37,301 bases of DNA from Bacteroidota bacterium (GTDB taxonomy: Bacteria; Bacteroidota; Bacteroidia; Bacteroidales; UBA4417). The DNA lies in the NCBI GenBank assembly GCA_013376995.1, contig JACAAZ010000030.1, forward strand, positions 1 through 37,301, given 5' to 3'. Below the pieces are notes generated by a model. That model searched no databases. It worked only from the letters and a program-made list of their open reading frames with translations, and had not been told where the DNA came from. A program made the position numbers and the translations under genes. Below, piece by piece: positions 1 to 22,413 of the stretch; position 1 is the first letter of the stretch; each line of letters starts with the position of its first letter.

Positions 1-110
1 AAAAGATAAAAGACAAAAGATAAAAGACAAAAGACAAAAGACAAAAGATAAAAGACAAAAGGAAAAAGATAAAAGTGAAATAATAAATGAACCAGGAACA
101 AGAAACCCTG
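1..110. repeat. Heptanucleotide array, AAAAGAY type, with GGAAC-type words at its right edge
   Basis: Positions 1-77 are exactly eleven 7-bp units of the form AAAAGAT, AAAAGAC or AAAAGGA, without a phase slip. The array probably continues to the left of the window. Positions 90-109 then contain words like GAACCAG and GAACAAG, which match the GGAACNN type seen in larger arrays near 8540 and 13100. It lies upstream of the nitroreductase gene. No coding potential is credible here. Confidence 0.9.
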
Positions 111-120
111 AAAGTTTTTA

Positions 121-132
121 AGGCAAGTGCCT
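121..132. repeat. Short perfect inverted repeat beside the left array
   Basis: AGGCAAGTGCCT is a 5-bp perfect stem with a 2-nt centre, 46 bp before the nitroreductase start. It is one of a set of small hairpins that sit in or beside the heptamer arrays. On its own it could be chance. Confidence 0.45.
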
Positions 133-177
133 GTTAACAGTAATATTTCTAAAGCTAAACTAATAATTGACTGAGAT

Positions 178-693
178 ATGGATTTTAAAGATGTAATTCT
201 GAAGCGTGAAAGTGTACGCAACTTTGACCCAACCAAGCCTATTCCCCGTGAAATTCTGGACCGGATCATGGAAGCCGGGAGGATTGCCCCTTCTGCCTCG
301 AACTATCAACCCTGGGAATTCTGGCTTGTTTCAAGCCGCGAAATGCTCGAAAAGATACACCCATGCTATTCAAGGCAATGGCTTCATGACGCGCCCCATA
401 TCCTGATTGTTACCGGTGACCTGGAACAGGGATGGGAAAGGGAAGATGGTTTCAATTCATTGCAGACCGATCTTGCAATTGCGATGCATCAGATGATCCT
501 GGCAGCCACCAACGAAGGAGTAGGAAGCTGTTGGGTTACCAACTTCAAAATTAGCACACTTCGCAATGCATTAGGGCTGAAAGACAGCATGCAGGTTTAC
601 GGAATTTCACCTCTAGGCTATCCCCGGGAAGGCTTTATAAGCAGGACTGCTATTATGCGCAAACCATTGCATGAAGTTGTGATTTACAAATAA
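178..693 (+). CDS. Nitroreductase family protein (FMN-dependent oxidoreductase)
   Basis: A 171-residue protein of the nitroreductase fold, a family of FMN enzymes that reduce nitro compounds, quinones or flavins with NAD(P)H, usually as cytoplasmic dimers. The N-terminus carries the FMN-phosphate contact motif RESVRNFD (residues 10-17), followed by the PSASNYQPWEFW segment (about 38-49). The helix TDLAIAMHQMILAATNEGVGSCW (roughly 98-120) and the C-terminal GYPRE (about 147-151) are also family hallmarks. The length is normal for the short subfamily. It starts at the first ATG after the repeat array. It is convergent with the next gene, so it is probably monocistronic. The physiological substrate cannot be told from sequence. 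Confidence 0.9.
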   Translation: MDFKDVILKRESVRNFDPTKPIPREILDRIMEAGRIAPSASNYQPWEFWLVSSREMLEKIHPCYSRQWLHDAPHILIVTGDLEQGWEREDGFNSLQTDLAIAMHQMILAATNEGVGSCWVTNFKISTLRNALGLKDSMQVYGISPLGYPREGFISRTAIMRKPLHEVVIYK

Positions 694-816
694 CTCTTGA
701 AAGTTGGTGCACGGTACCTCCGAAAGAATACTTACTCTGAACAGCCTGGAGCAGGGGTGAAAGAACACAGGTCTGCGATAATCTTCCTGTTTCTGTTTTG
801 ATAAGAGTTAATCGAA

Positions 817-1194
817 TTACCTGCTTGCGCCGAAGACCATTCCGCTTACCATGGGAATAAGCCATATCAGCCAAACTACAATGCTGAAGCGGTGGAAATT
901 CAGAATTAGTTTATCGTTCTTCCTTGCTAGTACAACGGTTGCCCAAATGGCATGAAACAGCATCAGCAGAATTGCTGCGAGGCCCGTCATACCGTGAAAA
1001 TTGAACTTGATCAGAGACCCTGAAAGCATGCTCATTTCGGTGGTTCCTATGGTATCGAACGTGAGCCCTAACCAGAAAACAGCCGCATGCCAGTTTTTTA
1101 GTTTTCCCTGTATCTTTTCTGCCCAAACTCCAATGGTGTAGGCGAGGCAGGCAAGGTTAATGAACAAGATGGCATAGAAAAGGGTTGTATTCAT
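817..1194 (-). CDS. HsmA-like four-helix integral membrane protein
   Basis: A 125-residue protein made almost entirely of four hydrophobic helices (about residues 4-22, 37-54, 69-90 and 101-121). Conserved-looking features are WHAAVFWLGLTFDTIGT in helix 2 and the histidines in FHGMTGLAAILLMLFHAIWA in helix 3. The pattern resembles the small HsmA-like / TIGR03987 family found in Bacteroidota and Firmicutes, whose biochemical role is unknown. The histidines inside helices could be cofactor ligands, but that is inference. It diverges from the gene at 1264 with only 69 bp between starts, so both promoters must lie in that gap. Confidence 0.75.
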   Translation of the reverse strand: MNTTLFYAILFINLACLAYTIGVWAEKIQGKLKNWHAAVFWLGLTFDTIGTTEMSMLSGSLIKFNFHGMTGLAAILLMLFHAIWATVVLARKNDKLILNFHRFSIVVWLIWLIPMVSGMVFGASR

Positions 1195-1263
1195 CTATCG
1201 ATCGCAATTGTATAGTGACCTCATCAGGATATCTGTCACAAATATCTTAAAAAATAGCAGGAC

Positions 1264-1734
1264 ATGGAAAAAGTTGATAAAGCTGTCCAATATTTCACGG
1301 AAGGATTTAACTGCTCACAGGCTGTATTTACTGCAATAGTTGAAAATTCAGGGATTGAGAAAGAATCAGCCTTAAAGATAGCTGCAGGCTTTGGAGGAGG
1401 AATCGCACGCATGCAGAAAACCTGCGGTGCTGTTACCGGTGCCGTGATGGCCCTTGGATACCTAAACGGCAATACAAGTCCTTCTGATGATGAAAAGAAG
1501 GAAAAAGTTTATGAGCAAGTGCAGGTTTTCGTAAAGCATTTCACAGAAAAGCACGGCACCATTAAATGCAGCGAACTTCTTGGCTGCAGTCTGCAAACCG
1601 CCGAAGACAGGCAAAAAGCCAAAGAGTTGAAGCTATTTGAAACAGTCTGCCGAAAATGCGTTGCAGATGCAGTAAATATCCTGGAAGAAATTACCGGTGA
1701 CCCTGGCTTGCCGTCCTCAAAGGAAGCAAGTTAA
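1264..1734 (+). CDS. C_GCAxxG_C_C family protein (possible redox protein)
   Basis: A 156-residue protein with the features that define the C_GCAxxG_C_C family. These are an early Cys in GFNCSQAVF (residue 17), the central TCGAVTGAVMALG motif (about 53-65), a Cys pair in KCSELLGCSL (about 100-107), and CRKCVADAVNILEEI near the C-terminus. The ordered cysteines suggest metal or redox chemistry, and members often occur beside oxidoreductases, but no reaction has been firmly established. No signal peptide is present, so it is expected in the cytoplasm. About 20 charged residues follow the last helix, which is usual for the family. Confidence 0.85.
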   Translation: MEKVDKAVQYFTEGFNCSQAVFTAIVENSGIEKESALKIAAGFGGGIARMQKTCGAVTGAVMALGYLNGNTSPSDDEKKEKVYEQVQVFVKHFTEKHGTIKCSELLGCSLQTAEDRQKAKELKLFETVCRKCVADAVNILEEITGDPGLPSSKEAS

Positions 1735-1784
1735 ACGCTATCGACTGACAAGGATTCGCTGCAGAATGCTCATCCTTTTAATGG

Positions 1785-2708
1785 CTAATGTGCATCAATC
1801 CCATGCAGCATCATGATGCTATGCCGCAATGTTGGGAGTATCTCTGAACAGTACTCTTCGACAGCCTTAACACTACCCGGCAAAGTGTAAACAAGTGTTT
1901 TCCCGGACATACCGGCCACGGCCCTCGAAATAAGCGCATTTGGCTTTATACTTCCATATTTATAACGGATCAGCTCCATTATGCCAGGGATTTCCAGTTG
2001 TAGTAAAGGCTTAATAACATCTACCGTAATATCTTTCGGACCAATGCCTGTCCCCCCCGTAGTAAAGATCATATCTACTCCCTGGTTAACAAAGGCGTTG
2101 AACAAGGTCTCAAGTTCATCTTCATCATCCGGGATCAAGGTGTTGTCGACCTCTGCATTCCAACCTTGTTGCTCCATAAATTTCTTCAACAGTTCTGTGA
2201 TCCTAGGACCGGATTTATCTTCGTACTCCCCGGCACTGGCGCGGTCGCTGAGAGTGATCACCTGAATTGAAAATATCTTGGGGTGATAACTAAATTCAAA
2301 GCCCGCACTCAGTTTTCCCGGGCTGAGAACCCGGGCAAAGATCCCTTCCTTTGGCATCACACAATTGCCAACTTCGTTGAATATAGCACAGCTTGTGCCA
2401 TGACATTCCTTCCCTATCTGTGTTACTTCGAGTTCAATTTCACCAATCCTGATACGGTCAAGGGGATGTGTATTCCAGAGTTCCAGGCCCTCGGTAGTAA
2501 TGTTCTCGGCAAATTCTCCAAAGTTGATCTTCCTTCCGGCCTGAACTGAGAACTTATCAATGCTTTCCTTTGCCAGAAGGCTGACCTGCCTGTGCCAGGT
2601 ACCGGAATGGGCATCCTGCTCTACGCCTCTGTTGTTAAGGTATATGGCTTCAACCGGCTTTTTAATCGTGCCTTTTTTTTCTGAAATATTAACTGAAAGT
2701 ATCTTCAT
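1785..2708 (-). CDS. MOSC domain fused to MogA/MoaB-type molybdopterin adenylyltransferase
   Basis: A two-domain protein of about 307 residues. Residues 1-145 form a MOSC domain (VEAIYLNNRGVEQDAHSG, then a CHGTSCAIF segment with a family-typical Cys). Residues 148-307 form a MogA/MoaB domain, with ITLSDRASAGEYEDKSGP, the molybdopterin-binding TTGGTGIGPKD and the PGSVKAVEEY loop. The second domain adenylylates molybdopterin before metal insertion by MoeA; MOSC domains handle Moco sulfur or bind pterin. The ATG at 2708 is preferred over an in-frame TTG one codon upstream. It lies in the same strand run as moeA, moaA and moaC, last in order, 111 bp after the preceding membrane gene. Confidence 0.9.
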   Translation of the reverse strand: MKILSVNISEKKGTIKKPVEAIYLNNRGVEQDAHSGTWHRQVSLLAKESIDKFSVQAGRKINFGEFAENITTEGLELWNTHPLDRIRIGEIELEVTQIGKECHGTSCAIFNEVGNCVMPKEGIFARVLSPGKLSAGFEFSYHPKIFSIQVITLSDRASAGEYEDKSGPRITELLKKFMEQQGWNAEVDNTLIPDDEDELETLFNAFVNQGVDMIFTTGGTGIGPKDITVDVIKPLLQLEIPGIMELIRYKYGSIKPNALISRAVAGMSGKTLVYTLPGSVKAVEEYCSEILPTLRHSIMMLHGIDAH

Positions 2709-2819
2709 CAATTTTACGTATTGCTTGCTATTACTGAACCTAATGCGTTTAGCTTATTAAATCATTATTAACATCCTTTCAACTTATACCAAATTGCCTG
2801 GAATTAATAACTAATTTTC

Positions 2820-3347
2820 TCATTCCCGTTCATTTTCACCCCTTATCGTCGAAGAAGTCGCCCGGGTCATTCGTTCATCGGACAACTCATTTCTGCCTTT
2901 TATAAATTTTACACCTTCAACGATATAAAAAACTGCCGAAGCGAGTAAAGAAAGTCCGAGTGAAATAAAGAAAGTACCCTTATAGATGGCAGGGATTACC
3001 TCCCACCTGCTCACCATGATACCCATAGTGATCATGAAAGACATAAGGATATATCCCCGCAGGTCAAAAAAACCAAATATGCATGGACGTTCATACTTAT
3101 GGTGAATGATCCGATTTACATATCGTTTGCTTACTTTCCTGAATACCAGGAGAAAGAATGGGAAAAAGCCGGCGAGTCCGATCAGGTAATTCATATAATG
3201 GTTCAGAGCATGCATTTCGATCATAATGATTCCCAGTTTCAGAATGCGATAAGCAGCAAATGCCCAAAGAGATGCACCCATGATGATCAGCACAATTTTG
3301 GGAGCTCCAGGTTTATATTTCGTGAAAAAATTACTCATAGTTGTCAT
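2820..3347 (-). CDS. Four-helix membrane protein overlapping the PrsW-like gene
   Basis: About 175 residues from the ATG at 3347, or 172 from a second ATG at 3338. It has four hydrophobic segments: GAPKIVLIIMGASLWAFAAY, MNYLIGLAGFFPFFLLVF, YILMSFMITMGIMVS and a final helix ending in YIVEGVKFI. The C-terminus is charged and polar (ELSDERMTRATSST). I do not recognise a family. The start lies inside the 3' end of the upstream protease gene (8-17 bp overlap), which implies translational coupling and suggests a partner role. An upstream in-frame ATG at 3398 would add a His-run encoded by the GGT repeat of the protease gene, and is not believed. Confidence 0.7.
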   Translation of the reverse strand: MTTMSNFFTKYKPGAPKIVLIIMGASLWAFAAYRILKLGIIMIEMHALNHYMNYLIGLAGFFPFFLLVFRKVSKRYVNRIIHHKYERPCIFGFFDLRGYILMSFMITMGIMVSRWEVIPAIYKGTFFISLGLSLLASAVFYIVEGVKFIKGRNELSDERMTRATSSTIRGENERE

Positions 3348-4035
3348 GTCCGGGTTGTGGTGGTGGTGGTGCGATACGGAAAAAGGAAGAATCCACATGC
3401 AGTTTCATTCTTTTCAAGCCGGTCCTCCACATAATGAACAGGAATGGAATAAAAACAAGCAGAAATAAAAGATGCTTTGAAAGAAGCAGAAAATCGTAGG
3501 TTCCATGAAAAAGCCAGGGAACAAGAATAGCTTTCCATAGGAAACCTCTTCTTCTATCTGTTTGAAATTTAGCCATTCCAAGGTAATAACCCATCAGGAT
3601 TCCAAAAATCATATGTGCCGGTACAGCTGTGAAGGCCCGAAGCAGTCCCACCTGGTACGATCCCTTATATACATAAAAAATGTTCTCTACAGCAGCAAAG
3701 CCCAGGGATACAGATACGGCGTATACAATACCGTCGTAGCGTTCATTGAAATTCCGGTTCCTCCAGAAGAGAAAAAACAGGACCAGGAATTTGAACACTT
3801 CCTCAGTAAATCCTGCAACGACAAAGCCATCATAAGCTGCCATACCGATGCCCTGAAATGCAGGGACAATGGTTGACAATCCTTGTTCTATAGCAGCAAC
3901 CGGGAAAAGTAAAATTCCTCCTGCAAAAACGCCCTCAAATAGCAGGCGCAGTGGTTCTTTCTCATACTTGTCGCGCATGTAAACATATGCGAGCAGGATG
4001 AATACCGGAGCCAGGGAAAGAAGTAGCAATGACAT
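3331..4035 (-). CDS. PrsW-family intramembrane metalloprotease
   Basis: A 234-residue polytopic protein with the PrsW / CPBP-like active-site set. The motifs are GFTEEVFKFL (E78-E79), FAAVENIFYVY (E117, N118), AVPAHMIFG (H141) and LFHGTYDF (H177). PrsW of Bacillus cleaves an anti-sigma factor; here the substrate is unknown. The C-terminal tail has a short proline run encoded by a GGT-type trinucleotide repeat at about 3356-3371, a possible in-frame slippage site. It starts 42 bp downstream of moaC, so it is probably in the same transcript although it has no known role in cofactor synthesis. No sigma or anti-sigma gene is visible nearby. Confidence 0.87.
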   Translation of the reverse strand: MSLLLLSLAPVFILLAYVYMRDKYEKEPLRLLFEGVFAGGILLFPVAAIEQGLSTIVPAFQGIGMAAYDGFVVAGFTEEVFKFLVLFFLFWRNRNFNERYDGIVYAVSVSLGFAAVENIFYVYKGSYQVGLLRAFTAVPAHMIFGILMGYYLGMAKFQTDRRRGFLWKAILVPWLFHGTYDFLLLSKHLLFLLVFIPFLFIMWRTGLKRMKLHVDSSFFRIAPPPPQPGHDNYE

Positions 4036-4077
4036 TAGAATACCATTAATTTCATTCTTAATTTCGTAAGAATTTTA

Positions 4078-4530
4078 TTAAATATCTGTTTTTGTCTTTT
4101 CCAGAAGCCGGATTGCATAAAGGGTCATATTTTTATCAACTGCCTTACACATATCATAAACAGTCAGGAGAGATACGGTAACAGCAGTAAGTGCTTCCAT
4201 CTCAACACCAGTAGGCCCTACACAATGGACTTCACTGCTGGCTTTAATACCAGCAGGTATGATTTCCATCCTCACTTCCACTTTTGTTATGCTTATCGGA
4301 TGGCAGAGCGGGATAAGACTTGAAGTCTGTTTTGCAGCCTGGATACCGGCAATTTGAGCTACAGTCATCACATCCCCTTTTTTCAGGGAGTTTTCATTTA
4401 CTAGTCGAAGGGTATCTTCTTCGAGATGTATCATCCCTTCAGCCCTGGCAACCCTTAGCTGGTCTTTTTTGAAGCTGACATCAACCATGTTGGCTTTGCC
4501 CTGCTGATCGGTATGGGTTAGTTTTGACAT
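4078..4530 (-). CDS. moaC: Cyclic pyranopterin monophosphate synthase MoaC
   Basis: A 150-residue MoaC, which with MoaA converts GTP to cyclic pyranopterin monophosphate, the first step of molybdenum-cofactor synthesis. MoaC acts on the 3',8-cyclo-GTP product of MoaA. Visible signatures are NMVDVSFK, the long motif from GDVMTVAQIAGI through SSLIPLCHPI (His 77), EVHCVGPTGVEMEALTAV and the catalytic-region YDMCKAVDK. Lys 51 and His 77 match the numbering of the well-studied E. coli enzyme. The protein ends shortly after LLEKTKTDI and lacks the common GGKSG tail, a minor variation. It begins 337 bp after the preceding gene, so it may have its own promoter. Confidence 0.96.
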   Translation of the reverse strand: MSKLTHTDQQGKANMVDVSFKKDQLRVARAEGMIHLEEDTLRLVNENSLKKGDVMTVAQIAGIQAAKQTSSLIPLCHPISITKVEVRMEIIPAGIKASSEVHCVGPTGVEMEALTAVTVSLLTVYDMCKAVDKNMTLYAIRLLEKTKTDI

Positions 4531-4867
4531 TTTGTTGTACTTATTATTAGTTTCAACTTGCTTAAATGCTCAGCAGATATTTATGCATTCCCCAAGAAAA
4601 CACTATAGCTAAAAGATTTTTCAGAATCCGATATCGCTTTCTGTGAGTTTAGAACCCCGGCAAGGTTTATCCTAATAAGTTAGAATGAGGACACAATACT
4701 TCAATGATTAATTACAATTACCGGAAAAAGATCGTTGCAGCAAAATGAAATCTAAAGAGATTGATTACCATTAACTTTTACACTGTGATTAGAAGAAAGC
4801 ATTACTGGCAGGCTTGCTTTCCTCATCAATTCTTTAATTCGGCAATTAGATCTATCCCGGCAATTGG
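4531..4867. other. Intergenic stretch, no gene seen
   Basis: The 337 bp between the AT-rich secreted-protein gene and moaC hold no convincing reading frame, RNA gene or heptamer array. Any moaC promoter should be here on the minus strand, but I find no exact TAnnTTTG. No structure resembling a Moco riboswitch was recognised by eye. Confidence 0.6.
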
Positions 4868-5716
4868 TCAGAAATTCGCTATTTTAGCAAATTGAAGTAC
4901 TTTTTTTGTGCTAATTTCTTCAAGCTTAAGCGATTCATCAGAATTAAATAGCACTTTATATTCTATTTTCAAATCATTTAAGACAAAAATTATTTTGTCT
5001 GATTCAATTGACCAATTCCCTTTACTTATTTTAGGTTTTCCTTTCTTCATTCTCTTTTCCATTGAACCTGTTTCAGATAAGCTGATAGAAAAATCATCAG
5101 ATTGCCAGCTTCCTGCAAGTCCCTTCATCGTTAATTTCTTTGATGTTAATAACTGCAAAGTAATTTTGTTCTCATCGACACATTTTTTCAATAATTCACT
5201 CTTTATTCTCTTTAATTCAATTTCAGACAGATTATCATAATCTCTTTTTGTAAAGGTCTTCGTGATCTCATTAGTATAACAAAGACTTAACATTTCCCTC
5301 TGTTGCTGTGTGAGATCATACCTGTTAAAATAGTTTTGTGCTTTATTGTACAAATTTGTTCTGGTTTCTTTGGACCAACTATCTATTTCATTAGGCTCAA
5401 CATAGAAATCGTGATCACCTAATTTAATACCTGATTTTTTTGAACACTCGTGTATAATTGTATTCTTGATACTTTTTAATTCAAGATCAACAAATAACTG
5501 ATATTCTGTCATCGAATATTTATCAACAACATTATTTAGACAGCATAAAGCCAATGTTTCCTTTTGACCGGCCAAAATAGCATCAAAAGTTGCAAGATCA
5601 CTCTTGAAATCACTCAGCACCTTGGCTTTGGCTTCATTTGTCCAGGGAGTTACCTGAGCATTAGTTTTTAAAATGAAGAGAGTAATAAAAACTGTAAAAA
5701 GAAGTATGTGTTTCAT
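4868..5716 (-). CDS. Secreted protein with duplicated N-terminal repeat and lipocalin-like C-terminus
   Basis: About 282 residues from the ATG at 5716; a TTG two codons upstream is unlikely. An N-terminal signal peptide (MKHILLFTVFITLFIL, ending near TNAQ) predicts export. Two copies of a roughly 80-residue unit follow. Each runs from a Trp-Xaa-Xaa-Glu start through a Q...L.LCC/LCY Asn motif to E-L-K-x-I-K and a terminal Cys. The last 75 residues (LAGSWQSDDFSISLSETG onward) look like the beta strands of a lipocalin-like domain. No function is recognised. The gene is visibly richer in A+T than the Moco genes around it and interrupts their order, which suggests later insertion. Confidence 0.75.
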   Translation of the reverse strand: MKHILLFTVFITLFILKTNAQVTPWTNEAKAKVLSDFKSDLATFDAILAGQKETLALCCLNNVVDKYSMTEYQLFVDLELKSIKNTIIHECSKKSGIKLGDHDFYVEPNEIDSWSKETRTNLYNKAQNYFNRYDLTQQQREMLSLCYTNEITKTFTKRDYDNLSEIELKRIKSELLKKCVDENKITLQLLTSKKLTMKGLAGSWQSDDFSISLSETGSMEKRMKKGKPKISKGNWSIESDKIIFVLNDLKIEYKVLFNSDESLKLEEISTKKVLQFAKIANF

Positions 5717-5986
5717 TTCCAATGAATTGTTTATGTTTTCTAATTATTATTGTGAATTTAGTACAAATCTTTCAAACCTTCTCAACTGTGAGAATTCATT
5801 TCCAAAATCCTTAAAAGTATTAATAGTTCTGAATAGGAAATACATTCCCATCCGCCTACGTTCCTTTCAGTCATTTGATCAATAAGAGCGAACATTGCAA
5901 TTGGGAAGCACATCTTTTTCATATCCAGGCAAATAAACATTCATTCTTTCGTCCAGACCTAATCAATTCCTTTATTAATTTGATCA

Positions 5987-7946: not shown

Positions 7947-7963
7947 AACATTTCAGCTTGCTG

Positions 7964-7971: not shown

Positions 7972-8044
7972 TGAATACCTTGGGACAGGAGTGAAGAATA
8001 TGAAGATGAACTAGTAGGGGGAGGAGAAAAGTGGGTGTACGAGG

Positions 8045-8143
8045 GTCATTCAATGGTCATTCAATGGTCATTCAATGGTCATTCGGTGGTCATTCGGTGG
8101 TCATTCGGTGGTCACTCGGTGGTCACTCGGTGGTCACTCGGTG
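8045..8143. repeat. Tandem 11-bp array, 3+3+3 organisation
   Basis: Nine perfect 11-bp units with no phase slip. Three are GTCATTCAATG, then three GTCATTCGGTG, then three GTCACTCGGTG. Each block differs from the previous one by one or two bases, so variants were fixed and multiplied stepwise. A degenerate GTCAGACATTG follows to about 8154. The array sits between the divergent moeA and AraC genes. Confidence 0.95.
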
Positions 8144-8160
8144 GTCAGACATTGGTATGA

Positions 8161-8503
8161 GGCATAGCGCATAGGGCAGAGCGCTTAGGGCGGAGCTCTT
8201 AGGGCAGAGGGCATAGGGCGGAGCGCTTAGGGCAGAGTGCACAGGGCAGAGCGCATAGGGCGGAGCGCTTAGGGCAGAGCGCTTAGGGCGGAGCTCTTAG
8301 GGCAGAGGGCATAGGGCGGAGCGCTTAGGGCAGAGTGCACAGGGCAAAGCGCATAGGGCGGAGCGCTTAGGGCAGAGCGCATAGGGCGGAGCGCCTAGGG
8401 CAAAGCGCTTAGGGCGGAGCGCTTAGGGCAGAGCGCTTAGGGCAGAGGGTATAGGGCGGAGGGCAGAGGGCGGAGCGCTTAGGGCAAAGCGCATAGGGCA
8501 GAG
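8161..8503. repeat. Heptanucleotide array, NGCNNAG type, 49 units
   Basis: Forty-nine consecutive 7-bp words, every one ending in AG, with no insertion or deletion. Most alternate between GGCRRAG (GGCGGAG, GGCAGAG, GGCAAAG) and CGCWTAG (CGCTTAG, CGCATAG). A higher-order 98-bp period (14 heptads) is visible: the block at 8181-8278 is repeated almost exactly from 8279. Frequent TAG triplets close the forward frames. It follows the 11-bp array directly. Confidence 0.95.
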
Positions 8504-8506
8504 TGT

Positions 8507-8516
8507 GGGGGGGGGG
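8507..8516. other. Homopolymer of ten G
   Basis: A run of ten G at the end of the heptamer array, about 100 bp upstream of the AraC gene promoter element. Such tracts are prone to slippage in replication and sequencing. Confidence 0.8.
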
Positions 8517-8533
8517 TGAAACGAAAAGGGAGA

Positions 8534-8582
8534 AGAACCCGGAACACGGAACCCTTAACGCCGAACATCAAACGCCGAACTC
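8534..8582. repeat. Heptanucleotide array, GGAACNN type, 7 units
   Basis: Seven 7-bp words: AGAACCC, GGAACAC, GGAACCC, TTAACGC, CGAACAT, CAAACGC, CGAACTC. They share a central AAC at a fixed position. It completes the order 11-mer, NGCNNAG, GGAACNN, which recurs at 12866-13194. Confidence 0.8.
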
Positions 8583-8616
8583 CTCCATTCACATTCATAA
8601 TTCACATCTTCAGTCC

Positions 8617-8624
8617 TATCTTTG
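8617..8624 (+). promoter_or_regulatory. Minus-7 element for the AraC-family gene
   Basis: TATCTTTG matches TAnnTTTG exactly. Transcription would begin near 8630, so the ATG at 8646 is the usable start; an in-frame TTG at 8622 lies inside the element and is rejected. No good minus-33 box was seen. Confidence 0.55.
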
Positions 8625-11686: not shown

Positions 11687-12838
11687 ATGAAAAGAAGTAT
11701 TGCGCTTATATTTCTATTGTTCACCATAACTACATCTTACGCTCAGACTGAAAGTATTGCTCAGACAAAGCGCCAGTATCCATCGGTATCCTTTAATTAT
11801 GAACAAGGAAGAATCATTCCTACAACAAAGTTTGTAAAAGGAGAAAACCTGCTAAATCACCCCCTGGAACATTACAGTTCATATTCGCTGAAAATTCTCT
11901 GGCAAAACCCGGGCTATAAAGAATGGCAGCGAGTTTATAAGATACCCTATTATGGCGGTGGAATATCAATGAGCGACTTCGATGATTCGAAGGAAATAGG
12001 CCGGCCTGTTTCGGTTTACGGCATATTGGGCATCCCGGTTTTCAGGCTGAAGAGATTGCAACTCTATACCGAGATGCAGTTTGGAATGGCTTGTAACTGG
12101 GTCAAATATGATAGCGTTACTAATCCAAAAAACCTTGTGATTGGAGGCAGATTTACTGTCCACCTGAATTTGGGAATGACTGCTTTTTATTCTTTCAGCG
12201 ATCATTTCAGCCTCGGTGCTGGCATGTCCTTCATTCATTTTTCCAATGGGGGCATGGAACGCCCAAACAGGGGATTCAACATTTATTCACCCTCTGTGGA
12301 ATTAAAATACCAGTTGGCAGGAAGACCGGCTGTTCATAGCTTCAATCCTGTGAAAAGGAATAAAGCAGTAAATGACCTGTACCTGATGATGGGCTATGGG
12401 AATCATCAATTGGTCGAACATGAGATGGATTCGAATTACTTTGCCATTGCAGGCATATCAGCCATCTTTCACAGGCAGTTTTCCAATGCCATTAGGCTGG
12501 GCATAGGCACTGACCTCAATTACTGGATGGGACTAACCGCTAATCCAGATGGTACCATGGGCCGAAGAGATTTCAGAAATACAACCATCGGAATTATCCT
12601 CCAGCCTGAAATGGTCATTGATCGCTTAACACTTGTGGGAGGAATCGGGATTTATGCTGTACATCTGAACTATGGAAATTTCCGGCAAACCTATCAGAGG
12701 CTGGGTGTAAGGTATAATATCTATAAGAACTTATCACTGGGATTAAATGTACGGGCTATCAACTTTATGCTGGCGGAGTTTCTGGAGTTTAACCTGGGGT
12801 ATACGGTGAAGGGCAAATCGCTGAGAGCGAAGCGCTAA
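11687..12838 (+). CDS. Outer-membrane acyloxyacyl hydrolase, PagL-like lipid A deacylase
   Basis: A 383-residue protein with a signal peptide (IALIFLLFTITTSYAQ) and alternating amphipathic strands typical of an outer-membrane barrel. The central FIHFSNGGMERPNRGFN contains the His-Xaa-Ser-Asn motif (H184, S186, N187) of lipid A 3-O-deacylases of the PagL / acyloxyacyl hydrolase family. At about 380 residues it is longer than PagL (about 170), as usual for Bacteroidota members, with an extra C-terminal barrel half. With the two reductases upstream it suggests remodelling of envelope lipids. The final residues GKSLRAKR and the stop codon are encoded by heptamer-repeat DNA, so the true ancestral C-terminus may have been different. 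Confidence 0.85.
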   Translation: MKRSIALIFLLFTITTSYAQTESIAQTKRQYPSVSFNYEQGRIIPTTKFVKGENLLNHPLEHYSSYSLKILWQNPGYKEWQRVYKIPYYGGGISMSDFDDSKEIGRPVSVYGILGIPVFRLKRLQLYTEMQFGMACNWVKYDSVTNPKNLVIGGRFTVHLNLGMTAFYSFSDHFSLGAGMSFIHFSNGGMERPNRGFNIYSPSVELKYQLAGRPAVHSFNPVKRNKAVNDLYLMMGYGNHQLVEHEMDSNYFAIAGISAIFHRQFSNAIRLGIGTDLNYWMGLTANPDGTMGRRDFRNTTIGIILQPEMVIDRLTLVGGIGIYAVHLNYGNFRQTYQRLGVRYNIYKNLSLGLNVRAINFMLAEFLEFNLGYTVKGKSLRAKR

Positions 12839-12846
12839 GCGCATAG
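12812..12846. repeat. Heptamers overlapping the 3' end of a gene
   Basis: Five heptads: GGCAAAT, CGCTGAG, AGCGAAG, CGCTAAG, CGCATAG. They run from the last eight codons of the PagL-like gene through its stop (TAA at 12836-12838, inside the fourth heptad) and beyond. Confidence 0.8.
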
Positions 12847-12865
12847 AGGGCTGGGGAGAGGAGAG

Positions 12866-13030
12866 GTCACTCAATAGTCATTCAATGGTCATTCAATTGT
12901 GATTCAATTGTCATTCAATTGTGATTCAATAGTTATTCAATAGTCATTCAATGGTCATTCAATAGTTATTCAATAGTTATTCAATTGTGATTCAATAGTC
13001 ATTCGATAGTCACACTGTGGTCATTCAACA
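12866..13030. repeat. Tandem 11-bp array, 15 units
   Basis: Fifteen 11-bp units in unbroken phase, same family as 8045-8143 and same strand. The units are variants of GTCATTCAATG such as GTGATTCAATT and GTTATTCAATA. The array is more diverged between units than the 8045 array. It lies between convergent genes. Confidence 0.93.
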
Positions 13031-13031
13031 G

Positions 13032-13059
13032 GGCGTAGCGCTTAGCGCAGAGAGCATAG
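13032..13059. repeat. Four NGCNNAG heptamers
   Basis: GGCGTAG, CGCTTAG, CGCAGAG, AGCATAG in phase, placed between the 11-bp array and the GGAACNN array as in the region near 8500. Confidence 0.8.
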
Positions 13060-13071
13060 AACATTGATCCC

Positions 13072-13194
13072 GGCACCCGGTCCGCCTGAGGCGGAGAACA
13101 CAAAACACGGAACCAGGAACACGGAACACGGCACCTGGTCCGCATGAGGCGGAGAACATGGAACCCGGAACATGGCACCCGGAACGCGTAACTT
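13072..13194. repeat. GGAACNN heptamer array with two embedded 16-bp hairpin cassettes
   Basis: Heptads such as GGCACCC, GGAACCA, GGAACAC and GGAACAT. Two 16-bp cassettes interrupt the phase: GGTCCGCCTGAGGCGG at 13079-13094 and GGTCCGCATGAGGCGG at 13137-13152. Each is preceded by GGCACCC/GGCACCT and followed by AGAACAC/AGAACAT. The core TCCGCCTGAGGCGGA is a perfect 7-bp stem; the second copy has one mismatch. Confidence 0.88.
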
Positions 13195-13199
13195 CCAGT

Positions 13200-14474: not shown

Positions 14475-14663
14475 TTTATTATATTTTTCTACTTTAAACA
14501 GTTTCTATTTTCTTTTGTTTTCATGATAAAGTTACACAAATTTCCCGTCGATTGGTTGTACCGGCATTCAATGACACTTTTATCCTATTTACATTCAACC
14601 ACTTAGAAGGCAAACAATTTGCAATTACTTTTGTCGTTATGTGTAAAGTATGGAATGGCATTA

Positions 14664-14693
14664 TTGACACCATACCGTTTAGCCATAAATTTG
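14664..14693 (+). promoter_or_regulatory. Promoter for the lipoprotein gene at 14725
   Basis: TTG at 14664-14666, 19 bp spacer, then TAAATTTG at 14686-14693. Both elements match the Bacteroidota consensus (TTG, 17-21 bp, TAnnTTTG). The start codon follows 31 bp after. Confidence 0.65.
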
Positions 14694-14724
14694 TATTAAA
14701 GTAACCAACCTTAAAAACGCTCAT

Positions 14725-15546: not shown

Positions 15547-15604
15547 ATACTTTTTAATCGATCGTTACCAGCAAATTCACAGGTAAAGAATCAGCAAGTT
15601 TATC

Positions 15605-15650
15605 AAGGCTCACTTACCTTTTAAAAGGTTTTGTGAGCCTTAATTGTTTC
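15605..15650 (+). terminator. Hairpin terminator after the lipoprotein gene
   Basis: AAGGCTCAC at 15605-15613 pairs with GTGAGCCTT at 15633-15641. The loop between them holds a second palindrome, ACCTTTTAAAAGGT. A T-rich stretch (TTGTTTCTTCTT) follows on the plus strand. It may also stop ppk1 transcripts from the other side, but that strand lacks a T-run. Confidence 0.65.
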
Positions 15651-15695
15651 TTCTTATTTCGAAACCAGGTATTTTAACTGCATTTGGGGGGAGAT

Positions 15696-17759: not shown

Positions 17760-17938
17760 AAACTTAGAAGATGTTCAGATTTTCCGAATAATCTTAACTA
17801 CAACAGAGGCTTATTTTACTGAATCCTGACAGGTTTGCAATCCGTAAACTGATGGAAGCTGGTAAGATTGAGTTATACTGAGCATGTTATCATGATTGTG
17901 ATTCGCAAACTTGTTCAGCCGAAGTATAACTGAAATCA

Positions 17939-18430
17939 TCATAACATTTTGGGATAGATTAAAAATTTCAACTTTGAATTTGCAGCAGCTATTTCAGTCC
18001 AATCTTTCACATTATACTCTAAACAAGCAATACCTGAAGTGGACATAGGATCAATTTTATCCTGAAGGAAATCATTTACCAGGTTTGTTACTGCCGGGTT
18101 ATGGCCGATGATCATCAGCGACTTTATGCCTGATGGCAGGTCATAGAAAAGATCGTAGAATTTATCTTTATCAGAAGTGTAAATCGATTTCTCAACCCTA
18201 ACATCTTCTTCTTTTAAGCTAAGTCCATGAGCCATTATCCAGGCTGTATCCAGGGCTCTGAGTGCAGGGCTTGACAGGATAAGGTCGATTTTGGTTTCTT
18301 TCTTCAGGAGATAATCAATAATAGTGCGTGTACGTTTCTTTCCCTTTTCCAGTAAGGGGCGATCAAAATCATCCATGCCGGGTTCGCCCCAGGAGGACTT
18401 GGCATGCCGCATGATGTATAAGGTCTTCAT
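17939..18430 (-). CDS. sixA: SixA-type phosphohistidine phosphatase
   Basis: A 163-residue histidine phosphatase of the small SixA branch of the phosphoglycerate-mutase superfamily. The catalytic RHAKSSW (R8, H9) is at the N-terminus. The second conserved region is LILSSPALRALDTA, and MIIGHNPAVTNLVN supplies the second histidine. SixA of E. coli removes phosphate from the histidine of phosphotransfer proteins. Its position 179 bp upstream of ppk1 suggests a link to polyphosphate or phosphohistidine turnover, which is inference. The length is normal. Confidence 0.9.
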   Translation of the reverse strand: MKTLYIMRHAKSSWGEPGMDDFDRPLLEKGKKRTRTIIDYLLKKETKIDLILSSPALRALDTAWIMAHGLSLKEEDVRVEKSIYTSDKDKFYDLFYDLPSGIKSLMIIGHNPAVTNLVNDFLQDKIDPMSTSGIACLEYNVKDWTEIAAANSKLKFLIYPKML

Positions 18431-18455
18431 AGGTTTAGTGCTGATAATGCTAAAT

Positions 18456-18463
18456 CAAAACTA
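18456..18463 (-). promoter_or_regulatory. Probable minus-7 element for sixA(-ppk1)
   Basis: On the minus strand TAGTTTTG matches TAnnTTTG, about 26 bp before the sixA ATG. The minus-33 region contains only near matches (GTTGGTTGTTG), so this is moderate. Confidence 0.45.
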
Positions 18464-18543
18464 TTCATTTCAGTAATTCAACAACCAACCTTCTAAAGAG
18501 TTAACAAAAAGATAATAGTTAAGAAATTTTATGACCGAATAAT

Positions 18544-19473
18544 TCAGGGTGAAGCAAGGATTTCTGAAACCAGGCTATTCCATTCGTCCTCTGATTTAAC
18601 CCGGAAAAGCTGCAGTTGCCGTTCATCACCTAACTTCATGAATGTGCCATAGTATTTCCAGTATTCTTTCATTTTGCTCATCCAGAACTTCCTTGAATGC
18701 CGTGTAGCCGTTTCAAGTTCAGTATAGAAGTTAATAAACCTGGCTTTTGCATCAGCAGGTAAAACTTGGGTTTCCGCCTTTATCATTTCAGGAAGAAAGG
18801 GATTGTAAAAAACACCTCTTCCCAGCATGAAGTCACCAAAAGAAAACCTGTTCCTGATGGAGACATAATCATCAAATGAATGAATGTCGCCATTGTAGAT
18901 TATCGGATGCTTTACATATGGTATCATCCTCTCCAGGTCATCCAGCAGCACATTCCCTTCATATTGCTGTATCCCGATCCTGGGGTGGATCGTGATATTC
19001 TTCAGCGGGTAGTTGTTCAGGACTTCCGCCACGGCAGTGAATTCTTCTGTTGTTTTTAATCCCAGCCTGAGTTTAATGGATAAATCCATGGAAATACCAG
19101 GAATGATCTTCTCCAGCAGCTGATCTATCATTTCGGGGAATGGCAGTATACCGGAGCCCCTTTTCTTCCTGACTATCCCATTGATCGGGCAGCCCAGGTT
19201 CCAGTTCACCTCCTTATATCCAAGCTCATCAGAAAGAAAGCGGCAAAGCAGGATAAAGTCATCCGAATCATTGCCAAGCACCTGGGGTATAACAGGTACC
19301 TGGGCATTTCTTTCAGGCAGCACATCCTTCACCTTTAGTGCGGTTATTTTATCTCCATGCGTTAGTGAAATAAACGGAGCCATAACCTTGTCAATCCCCC
19401 CGAAATGCCTGAAATACACCTCCCGGAAGGTGACTTCTGTAAATCCGTGAAGTGGAGCAAGGATGAGGTGCAA
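18544..19473 (-). CDS. tRNA-dihydrouridine synthase (DusC-like)
   Basis: An FMN enzyme that reduces uridine to dihydrouridine in tRNA. Visible are LAPLHGFTE at the N-terminus, VNWNLGCPI with the catalytic Cys, the RKKRGSGIL segment, LSIKLRLGL, ITIHPRIG, IIYNGDI and MLGRGVFYNPFL. From the TTG at 19473 the protein begins M(TTG)HLILAPLHGFTE and has about 310 residues, exactly where homologues begin. No in-frame ATG exists further upstream; the reading frame that continues to 19545 is heptamer repeat and translates to a Ser/Leu/Pro-rich stretch. I therefore choose the TTG start. The array begins only 25 bp upstream, so promoter and leader lie in or beyond the repeats. Confidence 0.88.
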   Translation of the reverse strand: MHLILAPLHGFTEVTFREVYFRHFGGIDKVMAPFISLTHGDKITALKVKDVLPERNAQVPVIPQVLGNDSDDFILLCRFLSDELGYKEVNWNLGCPINGIVRKKRGSGILPFPEMIDQLLEKIIPGISMDLSIKLRLGLKTTEEFTAVAEVLNNYPLKNITIHPRIGIQQYEGNVLLDDLERMIPYVKHPIIYNGDIHSFDDYVSIRNRFSFGDFMLGRGVFYNPFLPEMIKAETQVLPADAKARFINFYTELETATRHSRKFWMSKMKEYWKYYGTFMKLGDERQLQLFRVKSEDEWNSLVSEILASP

Positions 19474-19498
19474 GTGGGTCGGGGGTTGTGGGGTTAAA

Positions 19499-19858
19499 GG
19501 CGAAGCGCTAAGGGGTAAAGATAAAAGACAAAAGGAAAAAGACAAAAGGAAAAGACAAAAGGCAAAGAGCTAAGCGCTAAGGGCATAGAGCTAAGAGGTA
19601 AAGATAAAATATAAAAGACAAAAGGAAAAAGACAAATCCGTCAACTGACGGAAAAGACAGAAGGAAAAGGACAAAAGGAAAAGGACAAATCCGTCAACTG
19701 ACGGAAAGGACAAAAGGAAAAGACAAAAGGAAAAAGACAAAAGGCAAAGAGCTAAGCGCTAAGGGCTTAGAACTAAGGGGTAAAAATATAAGATAAAAGA
19801 CAAAAGGCTCTAAGCGTTAGGGTCATAGGGCGAAGAGGTAAAGATAAAAGAGAAAAAG
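19499..19858. repeat. Composite heptamer array: four cycles of NGCNNAG then AAAAGAY, with two hairpins
   Basis: Four cycles begin near 19499, 19560, 19741 and 19807. In each, NGCNNAG words (CGCTAAG, GGCATAG, AGCTAAG) lead through a junction of type GRGGTAAARATA into GATAAAA/GACAAAA/GGAAAAA words. Heptad phase is kept across the word change. Two identical 16-bp palindromes, TCCGTCAACTGACGGA, lie at 19637-19652 and 19690-19705. The array is upstream of dus and downstream of the propeller gene. Confidence 0.93.
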
Positions 19859-20219
19859 GAAAGTGCAAATTGCAAAAAGTTAATATCAAAATGCAAATGG
19901 CAGAAGGTAAATGGCATATTTCTAAAAAAGAGCAAGTAGCTACAGGCTTAAAAAAGCTAAACAAACAACGTGTATTTAACCTTGATCAACTTCCTGCAGA
20001 AGCACTTTGCAGTTTCTAATCTGCACTTTGAATTTTGGATATTGCCATGCACATTTTGAGCTAAAAGCTTCCGTTCAATGCATATCGAATGTTTTGCAAA
20101 TTTGAGATGGGCGGGCTTTTCACCATAAATGATTAGGTGGAGCACGAAATCCTGCATATTGCAAATGTGATATTACCTGTTGCCGTTTTTTTGTACTATG
20201 CATTGGATGTGCAGGTTTG
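19859..20219. repeat. AAWKGCA heptamers in both orientations, then an unexplained AT-rich stretch
   Basis: Positions 19861-19916 are eight heptads (AAGTGCA, AATTGCA, AAAAGTT, AATATCA, AAATGCA, AATGGCA, GAAGGTA, AATGGCA). At 20001-20049 the same family appears on the other strand (AGCACTT, TGCAGTT, TGCACTT, TGAATTT). The next 170 bp (20050-20219) hold no credible gene. A small frame there (19957-20157, minus) includes the repeats and is not believed. Confidence 0.7.
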
Positions 20220-21326
20220 CTATTCAGAATAGTTGGTAAATGTTATTCCATCGTATTTATACAAACCTGTATTTCTTGTCCCGATCCAAATATTTCCAGT
20301 TCTGTCTTCAAGCATAAACCATACAAAGTATTTGCTCATACCATCACTGGTATTATAATTTTTAAATGTATGTCCATCGTAACACCAAATTCCACCTTCG
20401 CTTTCTACAGATGATTGTTTTTCTTCCCCGCTAAACCAAATGTTACCATGCTTGTCTGCTAAAACAGGATTTCCAATTCCAACCTTCTGTGTGAAATTAG
20501 TAAAGTTCTTCCCATCGTATATGAAATTACCGTGCAGCCTCCCACCAAACCATAAGTTTCCATTTTTATCTTGTTTTATATAGCGAATCCAACCATCGCC
20601 ATTTGGTTTATAACTGCTTATTGATTTTCCATCATAACAACAAATGCCTTCTTCTCCAGGTGGCATTCCGGATGCAAACCAAATATTTCCACTTTTATCT
20701 TCCAATATACAGTCAATCATTTTAAGACGCAGGCTATCTTTATTTATCACTCCGTCATTATCTAAAAAACGATTAAAGTTGAAACCATTATAACAATAAA
20801 CTCCATCAGCTGTGCCTAACCAAATTTTACCACTTTTGTCCTGCAACATACTCCAAACAGTGTTTTCCGTTGACCTTTCCGTATAATAATTATTATCTGT
20901 TACCGGCCTTATATAAAATGGGATTGAAAGGGGGAAAATACTTTTTCCATTATAACAACATACTCCGTCAGTCGTGCCGAACCAAATGTTGCCTGATTTC
21001 TCTTCCAAAATGGAATAAACACTATTGCTACTTAATCCGTCTTTCTTTGTAAATTGAGTAAACAGCTTACCGTCAAAGCGATAAACGCCTTCTCCTGTAG
21101 TTCCAAACCAAAGATTGCCTTCATTGTCCTGAAGACCACACCAAACATTATCACTTTTGGTTGAACCTTGTGTCTTTACAAGTTTCGATTGCCCGACAGA
21201 AATTCTCTTCGATTCAGTTTGATTGTCCGTTAGAGAATTTGTTCTGGTCTGTCCGTAGCCGGAAGTCAAAAACACAAAAGTTACTAGCAGAGCGTAAATT
21301 GGTTTTAGAAAGTAATTGTTGGTCAT
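20220..21326 (-). CDS. Exported stand-alone seven-bladed propeller (two-component regulator propeller repeats)
   Basis: A 368-residue protein with a signal peptide (YALLVTFVFLTSGYGQ) followed by seven repeats of about 40-50 residues. Each contains a core like DxxGNIWFGTxxGVxxYDGKxFxxF. This is the two-component-regulator-propeller repeat found in the periplasmic sensor half of Bacteroidota hybrid histidine kinases. Seven copies are enough to close a beta-propeller. No Y_Y_Y domain, transmembrane helix, kinase or HTH follows, and no such gene is adjacent. The product is therefore predicted to be a free periplasmic or secreted ligand-binding propeller. The gene is more A+T-rich than its flanks. 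Confidence 0.85.
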   Translation of the reverse strand: MTNNYFLKPIYALLVTFVFLTSGYGQTRTNSLTDNQTESKRISVGQSKLVKTQGSTKSDNVWCGLQDNEGNLWFGTTGEGVYRFDGKLFTQFTKKDGLSSNSVYSILEEKSGNIWFGTTDGVCCYNGKSIFPLSIPFYIRPVTDNNYYTERSTENTVWSMLQDKSGKIWLGTADGVYCYNGFNFNRFLDNDGVINKDSLRLKMIDCILEDKSGNIWFASGMPPGEEGICCYDGKSISSYKPNGDGWIRYIKQDKNGNLWFGGRLHGNFIYDGKNFTNFTQKVGIGNPVLADKHGNIWFSGEEKQSSVESEGGIWCYDGHTFKNYNTSDGMSKYFVWFMLEDRTGNIWIGTRNTGLYKYDGITFTNYSE

Positions 21327-21427
21327 TAGTTATTGATAATAATAGTCAATGTTAATATTTGTCTTTTAAAGTTAGCAATGTCCCCAAACTTTACAGGTAA
21401 CTATGTGCTATATGCTATGCACTCAGA

Positions 21428-21555
21428 CCCGAAGGCTTCCCTTCGGGAGAAGTCAGAAGTCGAGCAGAAAGATTCCCATCGGGAGATGTCGGAAGTCAGA
21501 AGCCGGAAGTCAGAAGCCGGAAGTCGGAAGCCGGAAGTCAGAAGTTGGAAGAAAC
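21428..21555. repeat. Hairpin plus RGAAGYC heptamer array
   Basis: CCCGAAGG (21428-21435) and CCTTCGGG (21440-21447) form a perfect 8-bp stem with a 4-nt loop. From 21491 there are four exact 14-bp units made of two heptads: GGAAGTC AGAAGCC twice, then GGAAGTC GGAAGCC and GGAAGTC AGAAGTT. The sequence between (21448-21490) holds looser copies and a TCCCATCGGGA palindrome. Confidence 0.85.
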
Positions 21556-21699
21556 TCAGGCTATGGTTTGTTTAAATCTTTCCCCATCAGTGTAAATCAC
21601 GGACTTGATATAGCCAAGAGTATATTGTGCAAGGGCTTACCTCCACCTATCCATGCCGGCACGGTCTTAATTATCCGATTTTTATTTCTTCGGCTAAGT

Positions 21700-21734
21700 C
21701 ATAGTTTTAGCCTTTATTGATCGCAAAAACTATG
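21700..21734. repeat. Inverted repeat, 9-bp perfect stem
   Basis: CATAGTTTT at 21700-21708 pairs with AAAACTATG at 21726-21734. An alternative stem, GGCTAA (21692-21697) with TTAGCC (21707-21712), is mutually exclusive with it. It lies downstream of the VOC gene, but no T-run follows on that strand, so it is not a typical terminator. The rest of 21556-21764 has no gene I recognise. Confidence 0.5.
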
Positions 21735-21764
21735 AAAACTGTAAGTTGTTTTTACTGCTTAAAT

Positions 21765-22196
21765 TTACCAGGTATAGTTTGGGTCAAAATCTACCATCCA
21801 TTCAATACCGTATTTATCTCTGAACATGGCAAAATAAGATCCCCATGGGCTGTCACCAATTGGCATTTCAATTTGACCGCCTACCGATAGTCCATTAAAT
21901 ATTCTATCCGCTTCTTCTTTGCTTTCAGCACTTATTGAAATCTTACTACGGTTTTCGTTTTCATTTGTCCGTCCCAAAATTTCCGGAACATCATTAGCCA
22001 TTAAAACATTTTTCCCAATAGGTAAAGCAATGTGCATTATTTTATTTGCTTCATTCTCTGATACCGGAAATCCAGGACTTGACAGGTCTTTGAAACGTTT
22101 AATTATTGCAAACTCTCCGCCAAAAACAGATTTGTAAAATATAAATGCTTCTTCGGCATTTCCGTTGAAATTGATGTGAGGATTGATTTGTGCCAT
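21765..22196 (-). CDS. VOC family (PhnB-like) protein
   Basis: A 143-residue single-chain vicinal-oxygen-chelate fold protein of the PhnB / 3-demethylubiquinone-methyltransferase-like group. It shows INPHINFNGNAEEAFIFYKSVFGGEF at the start, GDSPWGSYFAMFRDKYGIEWMVDF at the end, and SISAESKEEADRIF between. Despite the PhnB name these proteins have no confirmed enzymatic role; some bind small molecules or metals. Full length. It is transcribed toward the propeller gene, with repeats on both sides. Confidence 0.9.
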   Translation of the reverse strand: MAQINPHINFNGNAEEAFIFYKSVFGGEFAIIKRFKDLSSPGFPVSENEANKIMHIALPIGKNVLMANDVPEILGRTNENENRSKISISAESKEEADRIFNGLSVGGQIEMPIGDSPWGSYFAMFRDKYGIEWMVDFDPNYTW

Positions 22197-22293
22197 CTTA
22201 GTATTATTTCAGTAAGTTAATTTCATATTTTTCTATTTATCATACAATCTGCATGTCACTTTGTTCAATCACCGCTGACAATACTATGATGCT

Positions 22294-22413
22294 CTATGCG
22301 CTTCGCACCTAGCCCTTAGATCTTTGCCCTTCGCGCTTTGCCATTTGAGCCAAAGGCTCCCCTTAAAGGAACTTTGCTGTTCGCGCTATGCGCTATGCCC
22401 TAAGCCCTTCACT
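22294..22413. repeat. NGCNNAG heptamers on the minus strand with two small hairpins
   Basis: Read on the minus strand, 22294-22342 is seven heptads (GGCAAAG, CGCGAAG, GGCAAAG, ATCTAAG, GGCTAGG, TGCGAAG, CGCATAG), and 22372-22413 holds further heptads such as GGCTTAG, GGCATAG and CGCATAG. Between them are two palindromes: GAGCC AAA GGCTC (22347-22359) and CCTT A AAGG (22361-22369). It is the same family as 8161-8503 but inverted. Confidence 0.88.

Follow-up and report, generated by a model that had tools for sequence, protein, structure and literature searches.

Do tandem repeats that share a unit length make up a code, or do they record how repeats are made? The question is raised by a 37,301-nucleotide stretch from a Bacteroidota bacterium (Bacteroidales, UBA4417; contig JACAAZ010000030.1, here C24), referred to below as the window and belonging to a genome of 5.05 Mb in 43 contigs (coded G000), in which arrays of several different 7-bp words lie between genes. 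A first-pass annotation, made from the letters alone, had proposed that these words are one system with a grammar and not unrelated microsatellites. We found that the arrays do have in common a period, a strand layout and some words that recur across species, but that no general grammar of direction, junction register or order joins them. The layout follows one rule: read 5΄ to 3΄, the G-rich strand of an array begins beside a gene and heads into the intergenic space, and arrays starting from both edges of a spacer face each other. The window's polyphosphate kinase matched seven distant loci in named genomes, six of them in Bacteroidota metagenome genomes at 41–51% identity, in keeping with a Bacteroidota host.

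Arrays were called with a hidden Markov model (HMM) of ten 7-bp word families and one 11-mer family (E11), which was trained on 837 kb of G000 and frozen for 630 kb of other contigs (1.47 Mb sampled in all), and were also detected without any word model. The HMM called 135 modules in the training sequence and 76 in the held-out sequence (211 in total), compared with none after the held-out letters had been shuffled one by one within 100-bp blocks. When periods from 4 to 13 were counted with N runs masked, period 7 was the most frequent (4.0 arrays per 100 kb), followed by period 11 (1.6) and period 8 (0.6), and periods 4–6, 9, 10, 12 and 13 each gave at most 0.2. The arrays are confined to spacers: seven of the 211 modules, each 17–35 bp long, lay well inside called genes, and of the arrays detected independently of the word model, none did so in G000 and two in other members of the genus. 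As in the long simple sequence repeats (LSSR) and short tandemly repeated repetitive (STRR) sequences of other bacteria, tandem units of constant length (5–11 nt) are thus present beyond chance and in intergenic positions.

In G000, sense arrays tended to start at stop codons. With AATAACC written as the plus strand and 95 of 104 clusters having genes on both sides, the 5΄ array edge lay between –20 and +30 bp of the stop that it faced in 36 of 60 cases, compared with 4 of 37 for 3΄ edges (Fisher's test, P = 1.6e-6). Starts near the upstream stop were found for GC (16/25), E11 (6/12), AAAAG (6/12), GAAG (6/12), GCAG (6/10) and GCAAA (4/9) words, and these six stop-side families never ended near a start (0/75). 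The C-rich word AATAACC faced a start in 18 cases and ended no more than 40 bp from it in 10 of them, and GC modules in antisense began near a start codon in 6 of 25. Because AATAACC is G-rich on the opposite strand, and because a placement rule had been published for heptamers of Xanthomonas and Nostoc, we proposed a single rule for the G-rich strand. This prediction was written down before the test, which used arrays found without the word model; many of the array letters had been seen earlier, but the gene distances had not.

For the strand with more G than C, we determined which array edge was nearer to a gene boundary. The 5΄ edge was nearer in 49 arrays of G000 and the 3΄ edge in 15 (P = 2.4e-5), and the other genus members, whose words are largely different, gave 57 against 19 (P = 1.5e-5; nine members with scorable arrays among 12 tried), most strongly in G011 (19:1). 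Choosing the purine strand instead performed worse (47:27). By spacer type, the counts were 77:26 in codirectional, 14:3 in convergent and 15:5 in divergent spacers. Arrays in two-strand spacers of G000 faced each other in 22 of 24 (one mixed, one reversed; words AAACG and TAACT left out); for arrays detected independently of the word model, the counts were 5/5 in G000 and 9/10 elsewhere (one mixed). Inverted pairs of the same family faced in a ratio of 12:1, counted as pairs, some of which share one locus. Accordingly, GC skew ran from +0.32 to –0.31 across codirectional array spacers (n = 49), from +0.28 to –0.15 across convergent ones (n = 8) and from +0.28 to –0.22 across divergent ones (n = 9). 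A general gradient of spacer composition was rejected as the cause, since array-free spacers had a flat skew except at start-codon edges, where they were G-poor (–0.29 in the last 10 bp).

Other candidate causes were also rejected. Stop codons inside the words do not account for the placement, because GC and E11 words often hold stops on both strands, yet their 5΄ edges met stops in 16/25 and 6/12 cases and their 3΄ edges in 0/32 and 0/10. Control of array strand by replication domain was not borne out by the agreement between adjacent arrays (35/66, P = 0.32). The quadruplex explanation failed, as the G3+N1-7 motif occurred in 4 of the 211 modules, and a function as unstructured RNA was not supported, array RNA being less stable than shuffled letters in 23 of 66 cases.

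A selection sieve acting on RNA deserves more weight, and we regard it as a tentative possibility: arrays would arise both ways, and C/pyrimidine-rich RNA after a stop (Rho loading) and G-rich RNA before a start (blocked initiation) would be purged. The G-poor ends of array-free spacers before starts and the opposite placements of AATAACC and the six stop-side families are consistent with this idea, as is the excess of sense over antisense among codirectional arrays (45:22, P = 0.0067; 26:16 in training and 19:6 in held-out contigs). However, the rule is kept in convergent spacers, which have no downstream gene to suffer from polarity, array-free spacers lack a G excess after stops, the skew gradient covers the whole spacer beyond its edges, and the array RNA is no less structured than its shuffled counterpart. 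The same sense bias, together with the affinity of 5΄ rather than 3΄ edges for stops, would also be expected if R-loops on G-rich non-template DNA past stops favored slippage; such transcription-coupled expansion seems decidedly unlikely, as it leaves unexplained the antisense G-rich strands that start at start codons (in other species, 17 arrays within 50 bp, compared with 0 for 3΄ edges).

Whether the words also follow an order can be examined in the window itself. Tandem Repeats Finder (TRF) returned arrays with period 7 or a multiple of it at 1–75, 8161–8503, 13096–13185, 19517–19750, 21488–21551, 22312–22350 and 34555–34668, and 11-mers at 8044–8147, 12865–13028 and 37095–37301. With TRF and the word HMM, every array of the first-pass annotation was found at or near its original position, and the HMM recovered the word types in the same places, the word given there as AAWKGCA being the GCAAANT family (19857–19926, inverted at 20002–20058). 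Scanning the window with Rfam (at gathering scores) and for tRNAs gave no matches. The features are as follows, with their sources in brackets.

1–87, plus strand: AAAAGNN heptad array, running off the contig start (TRF, word HMM)
88–112, plus strand: short GGAACNN module (word HMM)
8044–8156, plus strand: 11-mer array GGTCATTCAAT (E11) (TRF, word HMM)
8157–8514, plus strand: NGCNNAG array (GC), longer than any other heptad array of the window (TRF, word HMM)
8535–8580, plus strand: GGAACNN then AAACGCC modules, adjoining a divergent gene start at 8622 (word HMM)
12797–12861, plus strand: NGCNNAG array, overlapping the stop codon of the plus-strand gene that ends at 12838 (word HMM, gene edges)
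12862–13028, plus strand: 11-mer array E11 (TRF, word HMM)
13029–13059, plus strand: NGCNNAG module (word HMM)
13060–13192, plus strand: GGAACNN array, interrupted by two near-palindromes (13081–13095 and 13139–13153) (word HMM)
19493–19856, plus strand: alternating NGCNNAG and AAAAGNN modules, read as locally amplified (word HMM)
19637–19652, no strand: palindrome TCCGTCAACTGACGGA within the AAAAG array (palindrome scan)
19690–19705, no strand: second copy of palindrome TCCGTCAACTGACGGA, in the same register (palindrome scan)
19857–19926, plus strand: GCAAANT module (word HMM)
20002–20058, minus strand: GCAAANT module facing the one at 19857–19926 (word HMM)
21485–21551, plus strand: GGAAGNC array (TRF, word HMM)
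22289–22414, minus strand: NGCNNAG array, in sense, 59 bp past the stop of the minus-strand gene 22474–23754 (word HMM)
34542–34668, plus strand: NGCNNAG array, beginning 8 bp past the stop of the plus-strand gene that ends at 34533 (word HMM)
37076–37301, minus strand: 11-mer array E11, running off the contig end (TRF, word HMM)

Arrays run off the edge of several contigs (both ends of the window, at 1–87 and 37076–37301, and in G000 also C40:1, C42:1, C34:1, C27:1 and the ends of C36 and C37). The assembly therefore probably breaks at arrays and may lack the longest of them. Elsewhere in G000, 21-bp tandem arrays without clear heptad substructure were seen at C40:65761-66125, which holds an assembly gap, and at C43:90659-90889, and a unit of about 116 bp containing a GC module is present in two tandem copies at C41:130058-130208.

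The order 11-mer, NGCNNAG, GGAACNN does occur twice in the window, as the first-pass annotation had claimed, with an extra NGCNNAG array before the 11-mer at the second locus (12797–12861). The passage from NGCNNAG to AAAAGNN is likewise found four times at 19493–19856, each time via GRGGTAAARATA and in one register. We read these four junctions as local amplification, because their register is absent from all four other loci with this transition and because two of them sit in near-identical stretches. The claim that words of different type follow one another in phase holds inside 19493–19856 but not generally: among pairs of loci sharing a transition, the junction register was the same in 8 of 36 (5.1 expected, P = 0.13), and junctions at different loci differ in both letters and register. 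Copying of blocks, as judged by junction register, was rejected on this count.

A table of which word type follows which had been suggested as a check of the grammar. Each transition was counted once per locus, and the words TAACT and GGGAC were excluded from cluster, order and transition counts. Transitions were clumped (70 vs. 48.3 expected, P = 0.02) but showed no asymmetry of direction beyond chance (37 vs. 33.2, P = 0.25); the enriched ones were E11 to GC (8 loci vs. 2.6 expected), GAAG to GAAC (4 vs. 0.7) and GAAC to AAACG (3 vs. 0.2). An order of five tiers, fixed before the held-out contigs were used, placed E11 and GC first, followed by AAAAG, by GAAG, by GCAG, GCAAA and GAAC together, and finally by AAACG and AACC. 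With C-rich words included, 13 held-out loci were for this order, 2 against and 1 tied (P = 0.0074; pairs 22:5), and the training contigs gave 17:2; without the two C-rich families, the counts were 7:3 (P = 0.34) and 13:2, respectively. The held-out support thus needed the C-rich words, and a fixed module order was rejected as a separate rule. That a C-rich word comes last follows from the facing-strand rule and is therefore no evidence for a grammar; the signal that remains is a weak sequence preference.

These results bear on the functional grammar originally proposed, in which modules would be bound in order by proteins as one multi-part system. The clumped transitions, a lexicon shared between genus members and the held-out order with C-rich words would fit such a system, and the order was concordant in all five antisense loci (C34:69720, C34:102032 and C39:92043 in held-out contigs, C40:84265 and window position 19492 in training contigs) and in two of three divergent loci. 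Nevertheless, we consider it very improbable, given the loss of order without C-rich words, the lack of significant direction and of shared registers, and the variation of words, and even of period, at one orthologous spacer in related species, which is described below.

Period-7 arrays were found in 11 of 13 sampled genus members, with partly other words, the exceptions being 75 kb of G005 and 9 kb of G009. Several members also have period 8; periods 7 and 8 lead, and others are scattered (for example, 6 and 12 in G012, 9 in G011). In G011 (L144, L156, L157, L171-L174), 8-bp arrays are nearly as dense as 7-bp arrays (9.6 vs. 10.4 per 100 kb). Three other families of the order, sampled over 140 kb, yielded no arrays. 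Although the period count was empty in the 75 kb of G005, one G003 stretch matched about two dozen short places in that genome, and we therefore claim no contrast of presence and absence. The first-pass annotation had looked to sister genomes for arrays held in common, and relatives do share them in slot and partly in word. Spacers behave as slots: the spacer between moaA and moaC holds 7- and 8-mers in G002, an 8-mer in G007 and 7-mers in G008 and G011, whereas G005 lacks an array there, its two matches being 41 bp apart. Between the sister species G002 and G013 (87.9% nucleotide identity over 15.1 kb), two orthologous arrays could be aligned. The first, made of 8-mers and with both flanks aligned, was called as 106 bp in one species and 60 bp in the other; the second, a 7-mer array with one flank aligned, has a different mix of units. 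Copy-number change between close relatives, as in LSSR and STRR, is thus seen at one of the two comparable arrays.

Words recur across species more often than by chance. Eighteen canonical words were common to genus members, compared with 5.3 for letter-shuffled words (P ≤ 0.0004), and when the words of one orthologous array were left out the counts were 14 and 4.9 (P ≤ 0.001). Nine copies of AACCAAT, chosen for its frequency in G000 and G011, matched 40 of 198 genomes of the class (own included), compared with 3 for the permuted word AACACAT and 10 for AAACCAT (Fisher's test, P = 5e-10 and 7e-6); AACACAT is rare across the class but plentiful in a single genome, G085. Among 13 AACCAAT loci fetched from other families, the array reaches a start codon in four (L182, L183, L184 and L189, judged by eye without gene calls), and one (L193) lies in coding sequence. 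The 11-mer E11 matched 3 of the 198 genomes, own included; the middle of locus L192 (G083), from another family of the class, carries it with identical ATTG, ACCG and ATCG variants. In G003 (C13:9527-10006, L085), CAATGGA/CAATTGA heptads and a recurring interval of some 41 bp alternate; the interval starts with cctgcctgc and ends with ggggcaggtg, and the units are spaced 78–123 bp apart.

Repetitive extragenic palindromic (REP) elements and the bacterial interspersed mosaic elements (BIME) built from them are extragenic, composite and dispersed, are based on palindromes and are tied to REP-associated transposases. The arrays described here are also extragenic, composite and dispersed, and a palindrome, TCCGYYRGCTRRCGGA, accompanies them: it occurs 23 times in the 1.47 Mb (about 0.3 expected by shuffling), never in called genes and 12 times within 30 bp of a module, and it interrupts E11 words in five loci and AAAAG words at five sites in four loci, for each of the two word types always at the same point. 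Such repeated interruption at the same point, and the dozens of G013 places matched by array pieces of one G002 contig, could be explained if composites had spread ready-made, in the manner of BIME, as blocks that are mobile or gene-converted, and had later decayed. This explanation is quite unlikely in our view, because module junctions vary between loci and because Y1_Tnp domains, the candidate transposases, occur in 16 of 16 genus genomes, with four copies in G000, of which the two in sampled sequence (C43:129202 and C40:116195) lie more than 10 kb from the nearest module or palindrome. Being found everywhere we searched, the Y1 transposase was set aside as an explanation of the arrays, and no link to it was seen at these two copies. 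Unlike in REP/BIME, palindromes are minor here and form no core of the arrays (23 palindromes vs. 211 modules for the one palindrome type scanned in the 1.47 Mb).

The explanation we prefer, to which we give about an even chance of being right, is that the arrays are long simple sequence repeats born by slippage and laid down in a strand-polar manner from gene edges, and are not modules of a code. The unit would mostly be 7 bp (also 8 bp in several sister species, with one 11-mer family in G000), and strand slippage and local duplication would both create arrays and drive their turnover, with survival almost only in spacers. When a break is repaired or a fork restarts, with re-slipping, units would be added to 3΄ ends located in the spacer, and on each side the 3΄-ending strand would thereby carry the G-rich repeat, like two telomeres meeting; as geometry only, a G-rich strand ending 3΄ is indeed found on both sides. 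We favor a single geometric rule because it is the simplest: it does not depend on the direction of transcription and extends across the whole spacer. We consider a DNA-level cause of the polarity most likely. The arrays, their period, their confinement to spacers, the facing rule and a copy-number difference at one orthologous array are observed, and slippage as the origin and extension of 3΄ ends as the cause of the polarity are inferred. A broader conjecture, which we think unlikely, is that bacterial heptad arrays of several phyla are scars of one unrecognized DNA repair behavior: where a spacer suffers a break or a stalled fork, reiterated 7–8-nt synthesis with a G/purine bias would extend each 3΄ end and the two facing telomere-like arrays would then be joined, such that words vary and geometry stays constant.

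Several findings weigh against slippage with strand-polar extension. Two separate rules of selection on transcripts would yield the same picture, and slippage alone explains neither the class-wide AACCAAT nor the words common to genus members. The strand rule is absent in the sampled G003 (7:10), several of whose arrays lie in one cluster (C13:8492-10485), and E11 has no excess of G over C, its strand being fixed by its neighbors only. Moreover, none of the 16 genomes of the genus yielded Ku, and a reverse transcriptase (PF00078), which as a templating enzyme would be expected for telomere-like end addition, was found in 9 of 16 and in none of the array-bearing G003, G012 and G013. Both were rejected as array machinery for these reasons, so no dedicated end-extending enzyme was identified. 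Several readings at the DNA or RNA level fit; the two-sided transcript sieve is the main rival, and an order read by proteins is the least supported.

The presence of several heptamer words in one genome is also reportedly a feature of the STRR heptamers of cyanobacteria, which Mazel and colleagues are said to have described in 1990, and we know of no layout rule for them. Three Calothrix heptanucleotides are mentioned in PMC4692102. That study (Rehm et al. 2015) concerns G-quadruplex formation by the G-rich heptamers GGGNATC in Xanthomonas and GGGGAYT in Nostoc and, in the passages cited here, places them in sense within 50 bp of a stop or in antisense within 50 bp upstream of an open reading frame. 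The Xanthomonas repeats are closer to their 5΄ neighbor (28 vs. 160 nt) and form convergent pairs; sense and antisense are about equal there, and in Nostoc antisense is commoner and facing pairs are few. The arrays analyzed here are similar in having degenerate 7-bp units, a mostly intergenic location, sense placement at stops, antisense placement at starts and facing pairs. In contrast to the one quadruplex word type per genome described there, however, we found about ten words in one genome, with the motif in 4 of 211 modules, and also an excess of sense arrays, periods of 7, 8 and 11 in the genus and spacers of mixed words.

MacGregor 2015 (PMC4679880) described TAACTGA heptamers in Beggiatoaceae, cyanobacteria and some Bacteroidetes. 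In the main genome they mostly lie just upstream of starts, and they were read as a possible site for a translational regulator. According to the parts of that paper cited here, they resemble the present arrays in being intergenic, in having other heptamers in the same Bacteroidetes spacers, in relatives with shorter spacers without obvious repeats, and in indels that are mostly 7-nt steps between close cyanobacterial strains; that study covers one word, unlike the many in this genome. Mrazek et al. 2007, as cited in PMC4692102 and PMC4679880, found heptanucleotide units to be the most abundant in most genomes studied and proposed slippage over a 7-nt polymerase contact; among the points cited from that work, no strand or facing rule appears. 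In searches of the open-licence literature, no facing rule for non-quadruplex arrays of many words was found.

The heptamer excess is thus already known, since 2007 and with an explanation by hypothesis only (the polymerase contact, as told in PMC4692102), and a near-identical placement has already been published for quadruplex heptamers (PMC4692102, in the counts cited above). What these results add is that the placement rule is wider than quadruplexes: it holds for most words here, for other words in relatives and, judging from the counts in print, for quadruplex heptamers of two other phyla, and it therefore cannot rest on quadruplexes or on any single word. The origin of such repeats becomes testable, as extension of DNA ends with a fixed strand bias against transcripts sieved on both sides of the spacer, and a simple strand test is offered for repeat annotation. 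The results also suggest that such arrays break short-read assemblies. The layout points to how the repeats form rather than to a code.

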